Made by a program: the position numbers and the translations under genes. Shown piece after piece: positions 15,086 to 46,807 of a stretch of 64,000 bases of DNA. Every line of letters starts with the position of its first letter. Position 1 is the stretch's first letter. The stretch spans positions 62,001 through 126,000 of the forward strand of contig CALWAP010000002.1 of assembly GCA_944375715.1 (NCBI GenBank), in the 5' to 3' direction. Origin of the DNA: an uncultured Clostridia bacterium. GTDB taxonomy: Bacteria > Bacillota > Clostridia > Oscillospirales > Butyricicoccaceae. Under the pieces are notes generated by a model, which saw nothing but the letters and a program-made list of their open reading frames with translations, was not told where the DNA came from and did not search any database.

Positions 15086-16591
15086 TCATTTTCTTTCGGA
15101 AATATAGGATATCACATCATCTTCGGTCATGTTTTCGGTGACCGTCAGCCTGCAAAGGACCCTGAGGCTGCTTTCATCCCCCGCCAAAACCGTATTTTTA
15201 AAATCGGCATCGGTAGTAAAGGTCATTTTAATTCCCAGGTCTTTCAGCGCCTTTTCGGAAATATCGTCATACTGACCCTTCGGATACGCCAGGGCATAAA
15301 CCTCGGGCAGTCCCAAAGAGCCGTATTTTTCAAGATCGGCCCTGAGCTCTGCCATGTAAGCTTCTTCACTCTCGTCGCTTTGAATAAGGGCCACGGGCCT
15401 TTCACCGTCAAGGACCCCATGCATGTCGTAGGTGTGGCACTGTATCTCCATCACGCCCGAACCCTGCATTTCCAACGCCTGGTCCAGCCCGAAATGAGGC
15501 GTTATGGCCATTTCCGTATCTTTATAAGTATCCTTGCCCAAAGAACAGCCTATGACGAATATCGTGGCCTTCATTCCAAGCTCTTTCAAGATCGGATAGG
15601 CATATTCATAATTGCTCATATACCCGTCGTCAAAGGTGACCATGACGGGGTTTCCGGGCAGCGCCCTGCCTTCATATACAAAATCAAGAACATCTTTTGC
15701 ACTGACGGCGCTGTAACCTGCGTCTTTTAAAGCGAGCAAATGGCGTTCAAATGTTTCCGGCGAAACCTCCATCGAGCCGGAAGGGCTTTCGGATATATGA
15801 TGATAAAGCAGAACGGGGATATTTTCGCTCAGGCTGCCGTCATATTCCACCGGCTCCTGCTGAACCTTAAGCACCTCGTTTACATTGGTTCTTGTCACCA
15901 AAACGCCGAAATTCTGCCCGAAAAGCTCCGTTTCTTCGCCCGAAAGGCAGGAAAGGATTATCCCGCATATACCTGCGCCGGCGCAATCGCGTGTATAGAA
16001 GTAGCCGCTTTCGCATGACGCGCTTGTATAGCTGAAATCATAAAAATCACAAATTTTCGAAAGCTGCCTTTTGTAATCCCGCACATCTTCAAATTTAATG
16101 CTGTCCTGCCTGGAGCTGTGCAGCGGCATCATCAAAACGGTAAGCTCAGCGCCTTTTTCATCGCAGTATTCTTTGAGCCTTTCAACGGCATCCAGAGCCC
16201 GGCCGCGTCCGTTTAAACGGATGGTCCCACCTACAGGTTCAAAAGAGGCGCCGCCCCGTTCGAGTTCTTCCATCGACTGAGGCAGCTGAGGCTCGTATTC
16301 CGCCGCTTCGCTTAAGTCAAGACAGAGCATTATGTGGGAATATCCATTCATCACGGCCAAAACAGCAGCCCTCACCGATTTTTCAATATCCATCAGGGGC
16401 TTTATTTCATATGTATGGCCAAAAACCCTTGTCAGCTCCTGAGTATCGAAAAAAGCCGAAGAAGCGCAGCCCGTAACAAGGCCGTCATAGCCTTTCTCAT
16501 CTGCGGTTCCGGCATACGAAAAAAGGCTGAGGGCCAGGGAAATCAAAAGGGCCGCCGATGACGAGCGCAGCATAACTCCTTTCTTTTTCAA
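15086..16591 (-). CDS. Secreted polysaccharide deacetylase family protein (CE4/NodB)
   Basis: This exported protein of 501 residues has a signal peptide (MKKKGVMLRSSSAALLISL..., ending near SYAGTA). About 240 residues of unrecognised N-terminal domain precede a CE4 deacetylase domain. That domain begins at IPVLLYHHIS (near 265) with the catalytic TFDDGYMSN motif (near 320) and the metal His pair in QCHTYDMHG. A late LAYPKGQYDD motif is typical. Such enzymes remove acetyl groups from peptidoglycan or surface sugars. I chose TTG 16591: GGAGGTGA lies 6 bases before it. A GTG at 16600 is inside that site, and ATG 16573 has too short a gap. Confidence 0.8.
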   Translation of the reverse strand: MKKKGVMLRSSSAALLISLALSLFSYAGTADEKGYDGLVTGCASSAFFDTQELTRVFGHTYEIKPLMDIEKSVRAAVLAVMNGYSHIMLCLDLSEAAEYEPQLPQSMEELERGGASFEPVGGTIRLNGRGRALDAVERLKEYCDEKGAELTVLMMPLHSSRQDSIKFEDVRDYKRQLSKICDFYDFSYTSASCESGYFYTRDCAGAGICGIILSCLSGEETELFGQNFGVLVTRTNVNEVLKVQQEPVEYDGSLSENIPVLLYHHISESPSGSMEVSPETFERHLLALKDAGYSAVSAKDVLDFVYEGRALPGNPVMVTFDDGYMSNYEYAYPILKELGMKATIFVIGCSLGKDTYKDTEMAITPHFGLDQALEMQGSGVMEIQCHTYDMHGVLDGERPVALIQSDESEEAYMAELRADLEKYGSLGLPEVYALAYPKGQYDDISEKALKDLGIKMTFTTDADFKNTVLAGDESSLRVLCRLTVTENMTEDDVISYISERK

Positions 16592-16674
16592 AAAAGTCAC
16601 CTCCGGAAATTTTAAAACTAATAAATTTTATCATATTTTAAACCAAACCGCCACAGAAAAATTGTCCTGATGAT

Positions 16675-16710
16675 GCAAAGAGGGCCAGGCATTTGCCTGG
16701 CCCTCTTTGC
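16675..16710. repeat. Perfect 17-bp inverted repeat, terminator-like without a long T-run
   Basis: GCAAAGAGGGCCAGGCA and its exact complement are separated by two bases. No T-run follows on either strand beyond the TTT in the arm. It lies about 85 bp upstream of the minus-strand deacetylase gene and marks the left edge of the structured intergenic region. Confidence 0.8.
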
Positions 16711-16765
16711 TCAAGAAAAAGGAGAGATGATTATGCATGAAGTTAGAAGCTTGCATTTTTAAACT

Positions 16766-17186
16766 GCCGCCTTCGGAGGTCCCCCGAGTAAGTTTTGTTG
16801 CTCACAGAAAGGGGTGTCTTGTAACATTAGAAAGGACGTGTCTTGACTTGGAAGGAGTGGGGGCCCTCCGAAGCGGCTTGTGTGCGGGACGCCGCATTAA
16901 GCGGCGAAACTGAACCGCGGTATCCCGCATGCCGCGGTTATATGTCTGACCCTTTCGGGAATATGACCTCTTTAAGAAGGAGGTGCCTCCCGCGGCATAT
17001 GCCGCGGGAGGTGCAGCGGATTTGTAACAAGGTCATGAAGTTCAAAGAAAATCAATGTCTTTAAGGAGGTTTATGTCTGCCGCTGCTTGTAATTATATAA
17101 TGCACCTTTTTTACCTGCCGGCCAAGCATGTCCCGGAGTTTTGAGGTCCGGTGCCTTTCGGCCGGCCCGCGGCCACGGCCGCGGGC
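16766..17186 (+). ncRNA. Candidate structured non-coding RNA in an 800-bp gene-free region
   Basis: The gap 16592-17407 holds no convincing gene but many GC-rich stems. GCCGC-TTCGGAGG-CCCCC (16766-16785) pairs with GGGGG-CCTCCGAA-GCGGC (16859-16877) around 73 bases. CGCCGC/GCGGCG (16890/16901) is followed by AACCGCGG/CCGCGGTT (16913/16932). The loop of the latter contains TCCCGCA (16923), complementary to TGCGGGA (16883), a possible pseudoknot. A 12-bp palindromic stem (16986-17011), GCCGGCC/GGCCGGC (17117/17160) and a 10-bp stem GCCCGCGGCC (17165-17186) follow. I recognise none of the motifs of RNase P, tmRNA, SRP RNA or common riboswitches. The strand is assumed; the stems fold on either strand. 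Confidence 0.4.
17073..17144 (+). CDS. Possible 23-residue peptide within the structured region
   Basis: AAGGAGGT at 17063-17070 lies three bases before an ATG that opens a 23-codon frame (MSAAACNYIMHLFYLPAK...). It is hydrophobic in the middle and matches nothing I know. A nine-codon frame with a good site also starts at 16733. These may be leader peptides, or chance frames with ribosome-binding-like sequences inside an RNA. The spacing of three bases is short. Confidence 0.2.
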   Translation: MSAAACNYIMHLFYLPAKHVPEF

Positions 17187-17407
17187 GGAAGCTCGGGATG
17201 ACGCCGGGGGAGGTATCTGCATATTGGAAGGTTTTCTGGCGTCTTGTCCTTTGCTGAGTATATATTAAACCGAATTTTATGGATATTCAAAGATTCTTCG
17301 GAGTTTTGATGTCCGCCATAATTAATCGGTTTAACCTCCAAAAGTTCTTTAATTTTTCCCGAGTCTGTTATATAATGGGTGCATAAAAAGAAAACGGAGG
17401 CATATAT

Positions 17408-18427
17408 ATGAAAGTACACGGTAAGAAGATAAAACTGACCGAACTACCCACACCTCTGGAATATCTTCCCACCCTTTCAAAAGATCTGGGAGTGGAGCTT
17501 TACATTAAACGCGATGACATGACATCGCTGGCCATGGGCGGCAACAAGATCCGCAAGCTGGAATACCTGATGCAGGAGGCCGTGGACAGCGGGGCCACCA
17601 TGGTAGTGACGGCCGGCGGCGCCCAGACCAACCACGGCCGACAGACAGCCGGCGCAGCGGCCAAGCTGGGACTCAAATGCGCCATTGTCTGTATCGACAA
17701 TTATCCAGGCGAAATATCGGCCAACATCCTTCTGGACAGGATCATGGGCGCCGACGTCATCCTTCAGGCCCCCAACGGCGATCCCGATCAGCAGGAAAAG
17801 GTCATAAAACAGGTCATTGAAAAATACGAAGCCAAAGGCGAGAAGGTCTACTTTATTCCCGTTGGCGGCTCCAATGACACAGGCCTGCTGGGCTATTACG
17901 AGTGCGCCTGCGAGCTGGACGAGCAGGCAAAAGAAGCCGGCATACCCGAAGCCACCGTTGTTTCCGCCGTCGGCTCCATAGGTACATACATGGGTCTTTT
18001 CTGCGGTCTTAAAAATGAGGGTTCCCATCTTAAACTCCAGGGCATAGCCATTTCCGATTTTGGTGAAAATAAGGAAAAGAGGCTGATGGAGTATTTTGAA
18101 AGCTCCAAGGCCCATTACGGTTTTGATTTTAATGCAAAACCCGAGGATTTTCATATTGAGACGGGCTATGTCCGCGGCGGCTATAACCTTCCCAACGCCG
18201 ACGTCAGGAAAGCCATATACAAGATGGCCAGGGCCGAAGGTATCATTCTTGACCCCTGCTATACGGGGAAAGCCTTTGCCGGACTGCTGGACATGCTGAG
18301 TGAAGGCAAAGTTAAAAAGGGCAGCACCATCATATTCCTTCATTCCGGTGGGCAGCCCGGCATCAACACGCCCCACCACAGGGTGGAGTTTGAAAGAGAG
18401 CTTGCGGACGGAGTCATCGTTCTTTAA
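17408..18427 (+). CDS. D-cysteine desulfhydrase / ACC deaminase family PLP enzyme
   Basis: This 339-residue fold-type II PLP enzyme carries the PLP lysine in MGGNKIRKLEYL (near 47). It also has the TNHGRQTAGAAAKLG substrate loop (near 77) and PVGGSNDTGLLGY, as in the D-cysteine desulfhydrase (DcyD) and 1-aminocyclopropane-1-carboxylate deaminase group. It would release ammonia, and perhaps sulfide, from a D-amino acid. The family name does not settle the substrate. ACGGAGG precedes ATG 17408. A TATAAT at 17371 with a poor -35 is the nearest promoter candidate, and the structured region lies just upstream. Confidence 0.85.
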   Translation: MKVHGKKIKLTELPTPLEYLPTLSKDLGVELYIKRDDMTSLAMGGNKIRKLEYLMQEAVDSGATMVVTAGGAQTNHGRQTAGAAAKLGLKCAIVCIDNYPGEISANILLDRIMGADVILQAPNGDPDQQEKVIKQVIEKYEAKGEKVYFIPVGGSNDTGLLGYYECACELDEQAKEAGIPEATVVSAVGSIGTYMGLFCGLKNEGSHLKLQGIAISDFGENKEKRLMEYFESSKAHYGFDFNAKPEDFHIETGYVRGGYNLPNADVRKAIYKMARAEGIILDPCYTGKAFAGLLDMLSEGKVKKGSTIIFLHSGGQPGINTPHHRVEFERELADGVIVL

Positions 18428-43462: not shown

Positions 43463-43490
43463 CGTCGGCCCTCCCCGATATTTCAAATTT

Positions 43491-43528
43491 TTTATTTAAA
43501 ATTTTTTATTTAAAACTTTTTATTTAAA
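43491..43528 (-). promoter_or_regulatory. Three 14-bp direct repeats downstream of the marR-degV promoter
   Basis: TTTATTTAAA (plus-strand reading) occurs at 43491, 43505 and 43519 with an exact 14-base period, inside AT-rich sequence between the -10 box and the marR start. The position suits an operator that blocks transcription when bound. Confidence 0.5.
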
Positions 43529-43541
43529 ATAATTTAAGTAA

Positions 43542-43569
43542 ATGATACCACAAAAACACGGTTTGTCAA
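43542..43569 (-). promoter_or_regulatory. Promoter of marR-degV
   Basis: On the minus strand TTGACA, a 16-base spacer and TATCAT with a TGG extension. Confidence 0.65.
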
Positions 43570-43585
43570 GAAATATCTTTACAGT

Positions 43586-43617
43586 AAAAAAACACCCGGG
43601 AAGACCCGGGTATTTTT
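43586..43617 (-). terminator. Terminator of the M20 tandem operon
   Basis: Read on the minus strand, ACCCGGG and CCCGGGT pair around TCTT and are followed by seven T residues. Confidence 0.85.
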
Positions 43618-43635
43618 TATTTAACTCTTTTTAAC

Positions 43636-43763
43636 ATCATGCTGCGCCCTTGGCGCAGGCTCGCTTTGCTCGCAAAGCCAATCTCCCTTAAAAATCCTTG
43701 CCCTTCTGGAGGCCGCACCACTTTGTCAGGTACTCCTCTTTGGTCATGGGAGCCTTGAAATTG
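43636..43763. repeat. Direct repeat copy A (128 bp) downstream of the M20 tandem
   Basis: This 128-bp segment closely matches 43828-43955, offset by 192 bases. It includes the hairpin element GCTTTGC/GCAAAGC and the last 24 codons of an M20 gene. Confidence 0.85.
43688..43762 (-). pseudogene. 3'-terminal remnant of an M20 amidohydrolase gene
   Basis: On the minus strand this encodes NFKAPMTKEEYLTKWCGLQ and then KGKDF with a stop, which is the exact C-terminal motif of the two neighbouring M20 genes. Nothing homologous lies upstream. The LTKWCGL spelling matches the 43880-45205 gene rather than the other paralog (LTQWCGL), so the fragment derives from the former. It has no start codon or ribosome binding site of its own and is not expected to be translated. 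Confidence 0.8.
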
Positions 43764-43801
43764 TTTCCCCGCTTTTGGCGGGGGCCCCTTTTCATTTAAT
43801 A

Positions 43802-43830
43802 GATTTGGGGCGACTTAATCGCCCCAAATC
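43802..43830. repeat. Perfect 12-bp inverted repeat after the M20 gene
   Basis: GATTTGGGGCGA and TCGCCCCAAATC pair around CTTAA. There is no T-run. It separates the remnant from the intact gene. Confidence 0.8.
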
Positions 43831-43955
43831 ATGCTGCGCTTTTAGCGCAGGCTCGCTTTGCTCGCAAAGCCAATTCCCTTTAAAAATCCTTGCCCTTTTC
43901 CAAACCGCACCACTTTGTCAGGTACTCCTCTTTGGTCATGGGAGCCTTGAAATTG
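43828..43955. repeat. Direct repeat copy B (128 bp) covering the M20 gene 3' end
   Basis: This is the partner of the segment at 43636-43763. It includes the intact stop region of the 43880-45205 gene, and is presumably the source copy of the duplication. Confidence 0.85.
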
Positions 43956-45205
43956 GCTTTTACATTAAGGGCCTTTTCGGCACCATTAGCCAGAAGGTCG
44001 ATAGCTGTACAGACAAGGGTCTTGGCAGCGTTGAGATATGCCAGCTCGGGCTTGGCTATCTCGTAATCCGAGCTGTGGCCGATACCCCTGGCCCCGCCTA
44101 TATTCATATGGACAACAGGCATGATAACCGATACATCAGAAGCATCTGTCGAACCGCCAGAGCCGTTGCGCTTGCAGTTCTCAGCACCGAATATCTCCAC
44201 AAGGTTCTGATAAACGACATCCTTGAGCTCCTCGCTCTCGAAGGGGATAATATAGCCGGGAAGCTGAGTGATAATGCACTTTGCGCCCAAAGCATAAGCA
44301 CCGGCCTGTAAAGCCCTGTCAACCTTTGCGGAAGCGTCCAGAACGGCATCTACCGAAAGGCCCCTGACATATGTCTCTATCCTGACATCGGCAGGAACGA
44401 CATTTACAAGATCGCCGCCCTTGGTAATGATAGGATGGACTCTGATGGTGTCCTTATCCTGGAAAGTCTCGCGGTTGGCGTCGATGGCGGCCAGGCCTAT
44501 CTGCGCGGCCTTAAGGGCGTTAATACCCTGATGAGGCGCGGCAGCGTGGGATTCTTTGCCGATATACTGAATCATCTTACCGATAAAGCCCATGCCCGTA
44601 CCGCCGGCATCAGCCTTGATGGGATTGGGGTCTTCGTTTTCGGTAGTGCGGGTATGCTGCATTATCATCATGTCGACATTGTCAAAAAGACCCAGGCGTA
44701 TGAACTCCTGCTTGCCGCCCATCAGTTTGACAGTGCCCTGCTCGATAAGGTTCTTGCGGTACTCCAGCTCGACAAACTCCTCGGCAGGAACATGCATAAG
44801 TGTGATGTCACCGTCAAGGTTCTCCATAATGCCGGGGGTTTTAAGGGCATAGGCTACGCCTATAACCGAAGCCGCCTGAGCGAAATGTCCGCAGGAATGG
44901 GCAGCTCCCGTTTCGGGATCTGCACAGGGATGGCCAGGTGCCACAACGGCGTCCAGCTCGCCCATAATAGCCAGATTGACCTTATGGTCACGGCCCCTAA
45001 CGGGAGTAACTATACCTGTAACGGCGTGGCCATCTGTGTATTCATATCCAAGCTCATCCAACACAGCCTTTATTTTGGCAGCGGTCTTGAACTCTTTGTA
45101 ACCCAGCTCTGGCTCCCTGAAAATCGATTCGCCCAAAGCAATTATTTTATCGGCATTCCGGTCAATGGTTTGGCATGCCGCCTTTTTCATTTCCTGAACA
45201 GTCAT
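43880..45205 (-). CDS. M20-family amidohydrolase, AbgB-like, tandem copy 2
   Basis: This 441-residue M20 protein has the ligand motif GAAHSCGHFAQAAS (near 103), MHVPAEEFVELEYR with the catalytic Glu pair, the lid motif GKESHAAAPHQGINAL (near 215), GSGGSTDASDVS and a late GGARGIGHSSDYEI. The pattern resembles the p-aminobenzoyl-glutamate hydrolase subunit AbgB and related amidohydrolases; the substrate is unknown. It is about four-fifths identical by eye to the upstream paralog. Ribosome binding site AAAGGGGA. It lies 66 bases downstream of the paralog on the same strand, with a GC-rich hairpin between them. Confidence 0.88.
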   Translation of the reverse strand: MTVQEMKKAACQTIDRNADKIIALGESIFREPELGYKEFKTAAKIKAVLDELGYEYTDGHAVTGIVTPVRGRDHKVNLAIMGELDAVVAPGHPCADPETGAAHSCGHFAQAASVIGVAYALKTPGIMENLDGDITLMHVPAEEFVELEYRKNLIEQGTVKLMGGKQEFIRLGLFDNVDMMIMQHTRTTENEDPNPIKADAGGTGMGFIGKMIQYIGKESHAAAPHQGINALKAAQIGLAAIDANRETFQDKDTIRVHPIITKGGDLVNVVPADVRIETYVRGLSVDAVLDASAKVDRALQAGAYALGAKCIITQLPGYIIPFESEELKDVVYQNLVEIFGAENCKRNGSGGSTDASDVSVIMPVVHMNIGGARGIGHSSDYEIAKPELAYLNAAKTLVCTAIDLLANGAEKALNVKANFKAPMTKEEYLTKWCGLEKGKDF

Positions 45206-45226
45206 ATATTTTCCCCTTTCATAATT

Positions 45227-45252
45227 TTCGGGGCGGCGCTCGCCGCCCCGAA
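45227..45252. repeat. Perfect 12-bp GC-rich inverted repeat between the tandem M20 genes
   Basis: TTCGGGGCGGCG and CGCCGCCCCGAA pair around CT, just upstream of the ribosome binding site of the second gene. There is no T-run, so it is more likely an RNA stability or processing element than a terminator. Confidence 0.75.
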
Positions 45253-45271
45253 TGAAATTATTCTATTTCCT

Positions 45272-46603
45272 TTAAAAATCCTTGCCCTTTTCCAGGCCGC
45301 ACCACTGTGTCAGATACTCTTCCTTGGTCATGGGCGCCTTAAAATTGGCTTTGACATTAAGAGCCTTCTCAGCGCCGTTGGCCAGAAGGTCAATAGCTGT
45401 GCAGGCCATTATCTTGGCTGCGGCTATAACCGCGATATCAGGACGCTTGATCTGGTAATCGGCACCGTGTCCTACGCCGCAAGCTCCGCCTATCCTCATA
45501 TGAACAACAGGCATGATGTTGGAAACATCAGATGCATCGGTAGAACCGCCGGGGCCATTGCGGTGGCAGTTGTCCTTGCCCAGAACATAAACCAGATTAT
45601 CATAAACGACATCCTTAAGTTCCTCGCTCTCAAAGGGGCACATATATCCCGGGAGCTGGGTAATGATGCACTTTGCGCCCAAAGCGTAAGCGCCGGCCTG
45701 CAAGGCCCTGTCTACCTTTTCAGACGCATCGAAAATAGCCTGTGTATTGCTGCCCCTGACATAGGTTTCGATCCTGACATCGGCGGGAACGACATTGACA
45801 AGGTCGCCGCCCTTGGTGATGATGGGATGAACCCTGATGGTATCCTTATCCTGGAAGGTCTCACGGTTGGCGTCAATAGCGGCCAGGCCTATCTGGGCGG
45901 CCTTGAGGGCATTGATGCCCTGGTGAGGCGCGGCGGCATGGGATTCCTTGCCTATGTACTGAATAAGCTTACCGACAAATCCCTTGCCGACAGCACCGCC
46001 GGCGTTGCCCTTGCTCCATTCTTCGGCCCCTTCATTCTCAGTAACCGATGTATGCTGCATTATCATCATGTCAATGTTGTCCATAAGGCCCAGGCGGATA
46101 AACTCCTGCTTGCCGCCGAACAGCTTTATGACGCCCTGCTCTTTAAGGCTCTGGCGATATTCCAGCTCGACAAATTCCTCGGAAGGCACATGCATAAGGG
46201 TGATATCGCCGTCAAGGTTCTCCATAATTCCGGGAGCCTTCAAAGCGGCAGCAACACCTATGACCGAAGTGGCCTGGGCCGAATGGCCACAGGAATGGGC
46301 AGCGCCTGTTACAGGATCAGCCTTGGGGTGTCCGGCAACAATAACGGCATCCAGCTCGCCCATAATTGCCAGATTGATCTTATGATCACGGCCCTTGACA
46401 GGAGTGATTATACCTGTTACCGCATGGCCGTCGGTGTATTCATATCCAAGTTCATCCAAAGCAGCCTTTATCTTTGCCGCCGTTTTGAACTCTTTATAGC
46501 CCAACTCGGGCTCGTTGAAGATCGACTCCTGAAGGGCGATCAGCTTATCGGCGTAATTGTCTATGGCCTCGCATGCTGCTTTTTTCATTTCGGCTACATT
46601 CAT
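45272..46603 (-). CDS. M20-family amidohydrolase, AbgB-like, tandem copy 1
   Basis: This is the 443-residue paralog of the next gene downstream. It has the same motifs: GAAHSCGHSAQATS, MHVPSEEFVELEYR, GKESHAAAPHQGINAL, GPGGSTDASDVSNIM and GGACGVGHGADYQI. The two differ mainly in the middle (a VTENEGAEEW insertion here) and in the metal-loop neighbours, so substrates may have diverged. AAGGAGGC precedes ATG 46603, and a good promoter lies about 50 bases further up. It is the first gene of the two-gene operon. Confidence 0.88.
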   Translation of the reverse strand: MNVAEMKKAACEAIDNYADKLIALQESIFNEPELGYKEFKTAAKIKAALDELGYEYTDGHAVTGIITPVKGRDHKINLAIMGELDAVIVAGHPKADPVTGAAHSCGHSAQATSVIGVAAALKAPGIMENLDGDITLMHVPSEEFVELEYRQSLKEQGVIKLFGGKQEFIRLGLMDNIDMMIMQHTSVTENEGAEEWSKGNAGGAVGKGFVGKLIQYIGKESHAAAPHQGINALKAAQIGLAAIDANRETFQDKDTIRVHPIITKGGDLVNVVPADVRIETYVRGSNTQAIFDASEKVDRALQAGAYALGAKCIITQLPGYMCPFESEELKDVVYDNLVYVLGKDNCHRNGPGGSTDASDVSNIMPVVHMRIGGACGVGHGADYQIKRPDIAVIAAAKIMACTAIDLLANGAEKALNVKANFKAPMTKEEYLTQWCGLEKGKDF

Positions 46604-46654
46604 TTTAACTGCCTCCTTTTTTCTATGTGGGACATGACCGCCCCTATTGTTCTG

Positions 46655-46683
46655 ATTGTAGCAAGTTAAGCAGATTATTTCAA
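46655..46683 (-). promoter_or_regulatory. Promoter of the M20 tandem operon
   Basis: On the minus strand TTGAAA, a 17-base spacer and TACAAT. Confidence 0.7.
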
Positions 46684-46759
46684 TATTTCAGTCCGCAAAA
46701 GCGAAATATTGTATAACCTTACAAAAAGAGGCTTCATTTTTTGGTCAATCGGCGGGTAT

Positions 46760-46790
46760 AAAAAACGCGGCGGGAAGCATTCCCGCCGCG
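46760..46790 (-). terminator. Terminator of the M14-SLH gene
   Basis: On the minus strand CGCGGCGGGAA and TTCCCGCCGCG pair around a three-base loop and are followed by six T residues. Confidence 0.9.
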
Positions 46791-46807
46791 GAAAAATATT
46801 TTTTCAG

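Follow-up and report, generated by a model that had tools for sequence, protein, structure and literature searches.

The gap at 16601-17407 of the window (the whole 64,000-nucleotide stretch of DNA analysed here) is noncoding and lies between a minus-strand polysaccharide deacetylase gene and a plus-strand gene for a PLP-dependent enzyme. Our analysis suggests that its minus strand likely encodes a stand-alone small RNA acting in trans, which would block translation starts through multiple sites complementary to Shine-Dalgarno (SD) sequences, here called anti-SD sites, and that a box upstream of its promoter would co-activate the RNA and a kinase gene. This reading draws on features of the sequence: the gap is conserved, its promoter has a fixed geometry, anti-SD sites are both enriched and accessible, and the RNA is co-distributed with the kinase gene. 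From these we infer transcription, its strand and ends, the targets and their repression, and activation by the box. A sequence-only reading had proposed an undescribed structured RNA at this place; that remains the best reading as to kind, and the evidence favours the minus strand, so the strand was probably wrong. The features of the locus are:

15086-16600, minus strand: polysaccharide deacetylase gene (PF01522, E 3e-19); a promoter-like sequence of its own lies past the hairpin at 16675-16710
16675-17091, minus strand: candidate main small RNA of ~417 nt with predicted ends; minimum free energy (MFE) z -7.4 against dinucleotide shuffles; 7 anti-SD sites on this strand
16675-16710, minus strand: perfect 17-bp hairpin, proposed as terminator; U tract weak and displaced in the window
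16711-16765, minus strand: linker, mostly unpaired, bearing CAUAAUCAUCUCUCCUUUUU (anti-AUG plus anti-SD)
16766-16877, minus strand: stem B, 5' arm 16859-16877 and 3' arm 16766-16785, with a 73-nt pyrimidine-rich loop
16883-16939, no strand assigned: hairpins and 7-nt complement proposed as a pseudoknot; missing in the orthologs
16986-17011, no strand assigned: 13-bp palindrome, terminator-like, without a U tail; a species-specific insertion relative to the orthologs
17013-17086, minus strand: stem A (17080-17086 paired to 17013-17019), enclosing a pyrimidine-rich loop that bears CAUAAACCUCCUU (anti-AUG plus anti-SD)
17097-17125, minus strand: putative main promoter P2, -35 TTGGCC at 17120-17125, 17-nt spacer, -10 CATTAT at 17097-17102
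17135-17146, minus strand: second copy of the box, CCTCAAAACTCC, in the same geometry
17147-17256, minus strand: putative short unit from P1, its 5' end predicted from the -10
17262-17290, minus strand: putative upstream promoter P1, -35 TTGAAT at 17285-17290, 17-nt spacer, -10 TAATAT at 17262-17267
17300-17311, minus strand: upstream copy of the box, CATCAAAACTCC; the geometry recurs in G004, G002 and G006, and in four genomes ahead of the kinase gene
17408-18427, plus strand: PLP-dependent enzyme gene (PF00291; D-cysteine desulfhydrase-like)

Because the orthologs have diverged too far, BLASTN of the locus against 197 related genomes returned short palindrome matches alone and no real homolog, and we located the orthologous gaps by synteny instead, using the PLP-enzyme gene, which is present in all seven members of the genus. 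In G004, G002 and G006 this gene lies opposite the same deacetylase gene, with about 430-630 bp between them, and these genomes together with that of the window (G000) make up the RNA-bearing set. The two genes are just 152 bp apart, without the RNA, in G001, and in G003 and G005 another gene sits beside the PLP-enzyme gene instead. The named records belong to Clostridia MAGs, several of them from goat and water-buffalo gut. Plasmid records gave no match to the locus, and BLASTN in its own genome found the locus itself and no other copy. As to the lack of hallmarks of known RNAs, on which the sequence-only reading had remarked, Rfam models yielded no gathering-score hit, and relaxing the limit to E 5 brought up nothing relevant; at gathering score there was no match to LhrC, RsaE, RNAIII or any other family in the window or in L034, L035 and L038. 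The RNA is, as far as the sequences tell, most likely new and restricted to the genus. Four orthologs were available, too divergent for a reliable alignment-based covariation test, and their MAFFT alignment was unreliable. The window contains no tRNA genes and no tmRNA. It also holds a 3.3-kb stretch (43487-46807) in which the long frames of the ORF list, 43775-44311 and 44435-46669, both on the plus strand, are unconvincing.

In all four gaps the minus strand carries a promoter in which the box CNTCAAAACTNC is followed after exactly 9 nt by a -35 element (TTG/ATG) and then, after exactly 17 nt, by a -10 element. This geometry is doubled in the window (17311-17262 and 17146-17097), and the counterparts of P2 in the orthologs read TTGCCC/TATACT, ATGCGG/TATTAT and TTGCGC/TATGCT with equal spacings. 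The 50-nt box-promoter pattern was found in 7 of 197 genomes, against 3 for a reversed control, and in the window's own genome at just these two places; the matches in G051, G088 and G164 lie in or adjoin other genes and are probably due to chance. The box followed by 9 nt and TTG, searched with up to one mismatch, is confined to the four RNA-bearing genomes, and the reversed-pattern control gave 0. A stand-alone minus-strand transcript would fit these sequences best. Its transcription would start near 17091, or near 17256 from the tandem promoter, and would end at the hairpin 16675-16710. The unit from P1 has a GACGCC/GGCGTC stem, whose loop bears ACCUUCC and CCUCCCCC, followed by the GC-rich hairpin 17165-17186, which lacks a U tail; it may be read through into the main RNA.

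The stems on which the sequence-only reading was built lie where it had placed them. Positions 16766-16785 pair with 16859-16877 over 18 bp with one bulge and one mismatch, the stem 17165-17186 has 10 bp and a 2-nt loop, the arms of the palindrome 16986-17011 are 13 bp each (12 bp had been given), and the hairpin 16913-16939 holds in its loop the TCCCGCA that is complementary to TGCGGGA at 16883. The perfect 17-bp hairpin at 16675-16710 had been missed. The fold of 16750-17260 has a z of -5.5 relative to dinucleotide shuffles, none of 100 being as good, and the MFE per nt of the gap 16601-17407 is the most negative among the 18 noncoding gaps of more than 100 nt in the window. The pseudoknot drawn from the 7-nt complement gained no comparative support: its region is missing from the three orthologous RNAs, and the palindromes at 16883-17011 that include it are specific to the window's species. 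The core of the palindrome 16986-17011, CCGCGGCATATGCCGCGG, also occurs twice elsewhere in the genome as the stem of ordinary U-tailed terminators (18-nt palindrome matches at L074:459-476 and L075:497-514), and these are the only related palindromes.

The predicted RNA measures 417 nt in G000 (582 nt from P1), 352 nt in G004, 173 nt in G002 and 285 nt in G006, with minus-strand MFE z values of -7.4, -4.8, -4.1 and -7.4, respectively. Stems A and B recur in G004 and G006 with sequences unrelated to those of the window, stem B having 17 bp and a 62-nt loop in the former and 16 bp and a 56-nt loop in the latter. Compared with shuffles, stem B alone gave P 0.007 in G000, 0 of 300 in G004 and a borderline P of 0.047 in G006, while the long stem of G002 is a different one (P 0.07). 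All four orthologs have 5' stems around anti-SD loops, again differing in sequence, and in all four a strong terminal hairpin stands at the same place, ahead of the promoter-like sequence of the deacetylase gene. On the minus strand this hairpin is followed by TTTTCTTTTC, a clear U run, in G004, by TTTTG in G002, and by weaker T-rich stretches in G006 and the window. As regards a promoter and terminator of its own, the candidate RNA keeps the promoter and keeps the proposed terminator hairpin in place, the U tract being weak in the window.

What recurs across the orthologs is unpaired anti-SD sequence, in stems of differing sequence. We scored as anti-SD sites the motif classes CCUCC, CUCCUU or UCCUUU; these were picked after viewing the sequences, so that the P values are optimistic and the following figures indicative. 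The four RNAs hold 21 such sites, against 6.4 +/- 2.3 in dinucleotide shuffles (0/2000), and in 10 cases, against 1.2 in shuffles (0/2000), CAU, the complement of AUG (anti-AUG), lies at most 10 nt away on the 5' side. The mean unpaired probability of the sites is 0.76, compared with 0.48 expected (0/5000). Per species the enrichment is weak in G006 and G004, and in G000 the predicted fold leaves three of the seven sites wholly or mostly paired. In the window the loop of stem B bears CUCCUUCC and GUCCUUUC. The candidate RNA has the unpaired, SD-complementary sequence of C-rich (CCUCC/UCCC-like) type by which the functional class of C-rich/anti-SD RNAs of Gram-positive bacteria is recognised. 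A naive duplex ranking of targets in G000 placed the start region of the kinase gene first of 29; its lead over an unrelated gene was 0.1 kcal/mol, and the ranking included no accessibility terms. Given this margin and the absence of those terms, we set the ranking aside as evidence for a target.

These observations suggest a possible mode of action. The GC-rich stems would hold open the pyrimidine-rich loops and linkers with their repeated anti-SD sites, several of them preceded by anti-AUG, and the loops would pair with the ribosome-binding sites of mRNAs, perhaps aided by Hfq, which is present in the genome, and so block translation initiation. A transcription factor may bind to the box, which lies 9 bp ahead of the -35, and co-activate the RNA and the Ser/Thr-kinase-like gene.

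In all four RNA-bearing genomes the same box promoter precedes this Ser/Thr-kinase-like gene (PF00069; 930-964 aa where complete), the spacer in G002 being 18 nt if TATAAT is taken as the -10. Among the 87 family genomes examined, the gene was found in none of the others. Its upstream neighbour encodes a protein of ~400 aa with no confident Pfam match, and both genes (L089:1574-5728, L090:1196-5367, L091:521-3310 and L092:3639-6035) are missing from the three members of the genus that lack the RNA. This co-distribution, four with and three without, has a one-sided Fisher P of 1/35; whether the four RNA-bearing genomes form a clade is not settled by the PLP-enzyme tree. The kinase gene of G002 is broken up over two contigs, with stop codons in one match, and its N-terminal part is weakly FtsZ_C-like. 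Further copies of the box promoter lie in G004 before a gene that weakly resembles DUF6782-like metallopeptidases (L064:1009), and in G006 before an NYN-domain gene (L083:1501) and before a zinc-ribbon-like gene adjoining a Crp/Fnr-like regulator gene (L082, minus strand, 1501). We tentatively speculate that the RNA would silence translation as one arm of a stress or defence regulon specific to this lineage, in which a single regulator acting via the box would switch on both the large kinase-like protein and the RNA with its roughly seven anti-start sites, the two together damping the translation of many mRNAs at once. A role in phage defence is possible because the kinase domain matches kinase-type defence models in PADLOC, these being its best hits among the anti-phage models.

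Other explanations of the gap have to be weighed. The candidate RNA lies on the same strand as the deacetylase gene and directly upstream of it, with a terminator-like hairpin in between, and could thus be a 5' leader or attenuator that controls this gene via the hairpin. However, in each species a promoter-like sequence of the deacetylase gene's own lies past the hairpin, and the gene is retained in G001 behind a 152-bp gap without the RNA; to our knowledge, repeated anti-SD loops are not among the features of attenuators. We consider such a leader unlikely. Palindromic repeats or decayed DNA without an RNA function would account for the GC-rich palindromes at 16883-17011, which have no counterpart in the orthologs, but not for the promoter, anti-SD sites and gene context retained in four species. 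The sequence-only reading had itself allowed for a cluster of palindromic repeats, of which we found no second copy in the genome. A REP-like family, which would be expected in many copies, was rejected, the locus itself being the only one and the two 18-nt palindrome matches being terminators. Repeats or decay are thus very unlikely.

The remaining alternatives place the function on the plus strand, which is G-rich in the gap 16601-17407 and whose fold in G000 equals that of the minus strand or is stronger. A plus-strand RNA could bind a protein, as a CsrB/RsmZ-like sponge, or the 16S rRNA tail through its many GGA/AGGAGG motifs, and GGA motifs are plentiful in all four gaps. Against this, the conserved promoter lies on the minus strand, and CsrA was not found in the genome, where positive controls were found; given the absence of CsrA, a CsrB-like sponge is improbable, and we judge this plus-strand RNA reading as a whole quite unlikely. 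A simple scan found no sigma-70-like promoter on the plus strand, a weak argument since the scan also misses those on the minus strand. It is also conceivable that a series of tiny peptides is encoded on the plus strand, their frames opening with an ATG behind a strong SD, as in AAGGAGGTTTATG at 17063 and AAAGGAGAGATGATTATG at 16718. From species to species these peptides show no relation, with a short match at E 0.005 as the best, and their SD and ATG motifs mirror the anti-SD and anti-AUG of the minus strand. No ORF is kept among the orthologous gaps on either strand, in agreement with the lack of protein-like frames seen earlier, and we regard the peptides as highly improbable.

If the minus-strand anti-SD RNA is real, regulation by long RNAs with multiple anti-SD sites, known chiefly in staphylococci, listeria and streptococci, would extend to uncultured gut Clostridia. 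The exposed sites and the promoter of this RNA would have been kept even though almost all of its stem sequence has changed, and a concrete promoter motif would tie a small RNA to a kinase gene, making the regulator and regulon searchable.

By analogy, the best explanation is that this RNA acts in the manner of RNAIII, LhrC and the csRNAs, to which we claim no homology. RNAIII of Staphylococcus aureus uses C-rich loops; it is likewise long and built of many hairpins, and several of its C-rich loops are unpaired and pair with ribosome-binding sites (PMC2837412). Unlike RNAIII, the candidate has no shown sequence relation to it and no conserved internal ORF, its promoter and genus are different and its repression is putative. 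The repeated short motifs in the loops of a multi-hairpin RNA also recall CsrB/RsmZ, but the motif would sit on the opposite strand, and the genome lacks CsrA. LhrC of Listeria monocytogenes has three redundant CU-rich sites (PMC4132741). The candidate shares with LhrC1-5 the presence of several redundant CU-rich motifs, placed in loops as well as linkers, the box is comparable with the need of their response regulator for promoter sequence upstream of about -53, and their multiple copies in tandem can be listed as a further likeness (PMC4132741), whereas the candidate is longer, has no Rfam match and is one locus with two promoters as opposed to five copies. The csRNAs of Streptococcus (51-202 nt) differ from it in having a conserved nonamer and CiaR-dependent promoters, the candidate RNAs being 173-417 nt long, with another box and no shown sequence relation. 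Like the csRNAs, which carry anti-SD with anti-AUG in unpaired regions and are transcribed from promoters of one regulon, the candidate combines unpaired anti-SD and anti-AUG (CAU) with what may be a dedicated-regulon promoter (PMC3091779).
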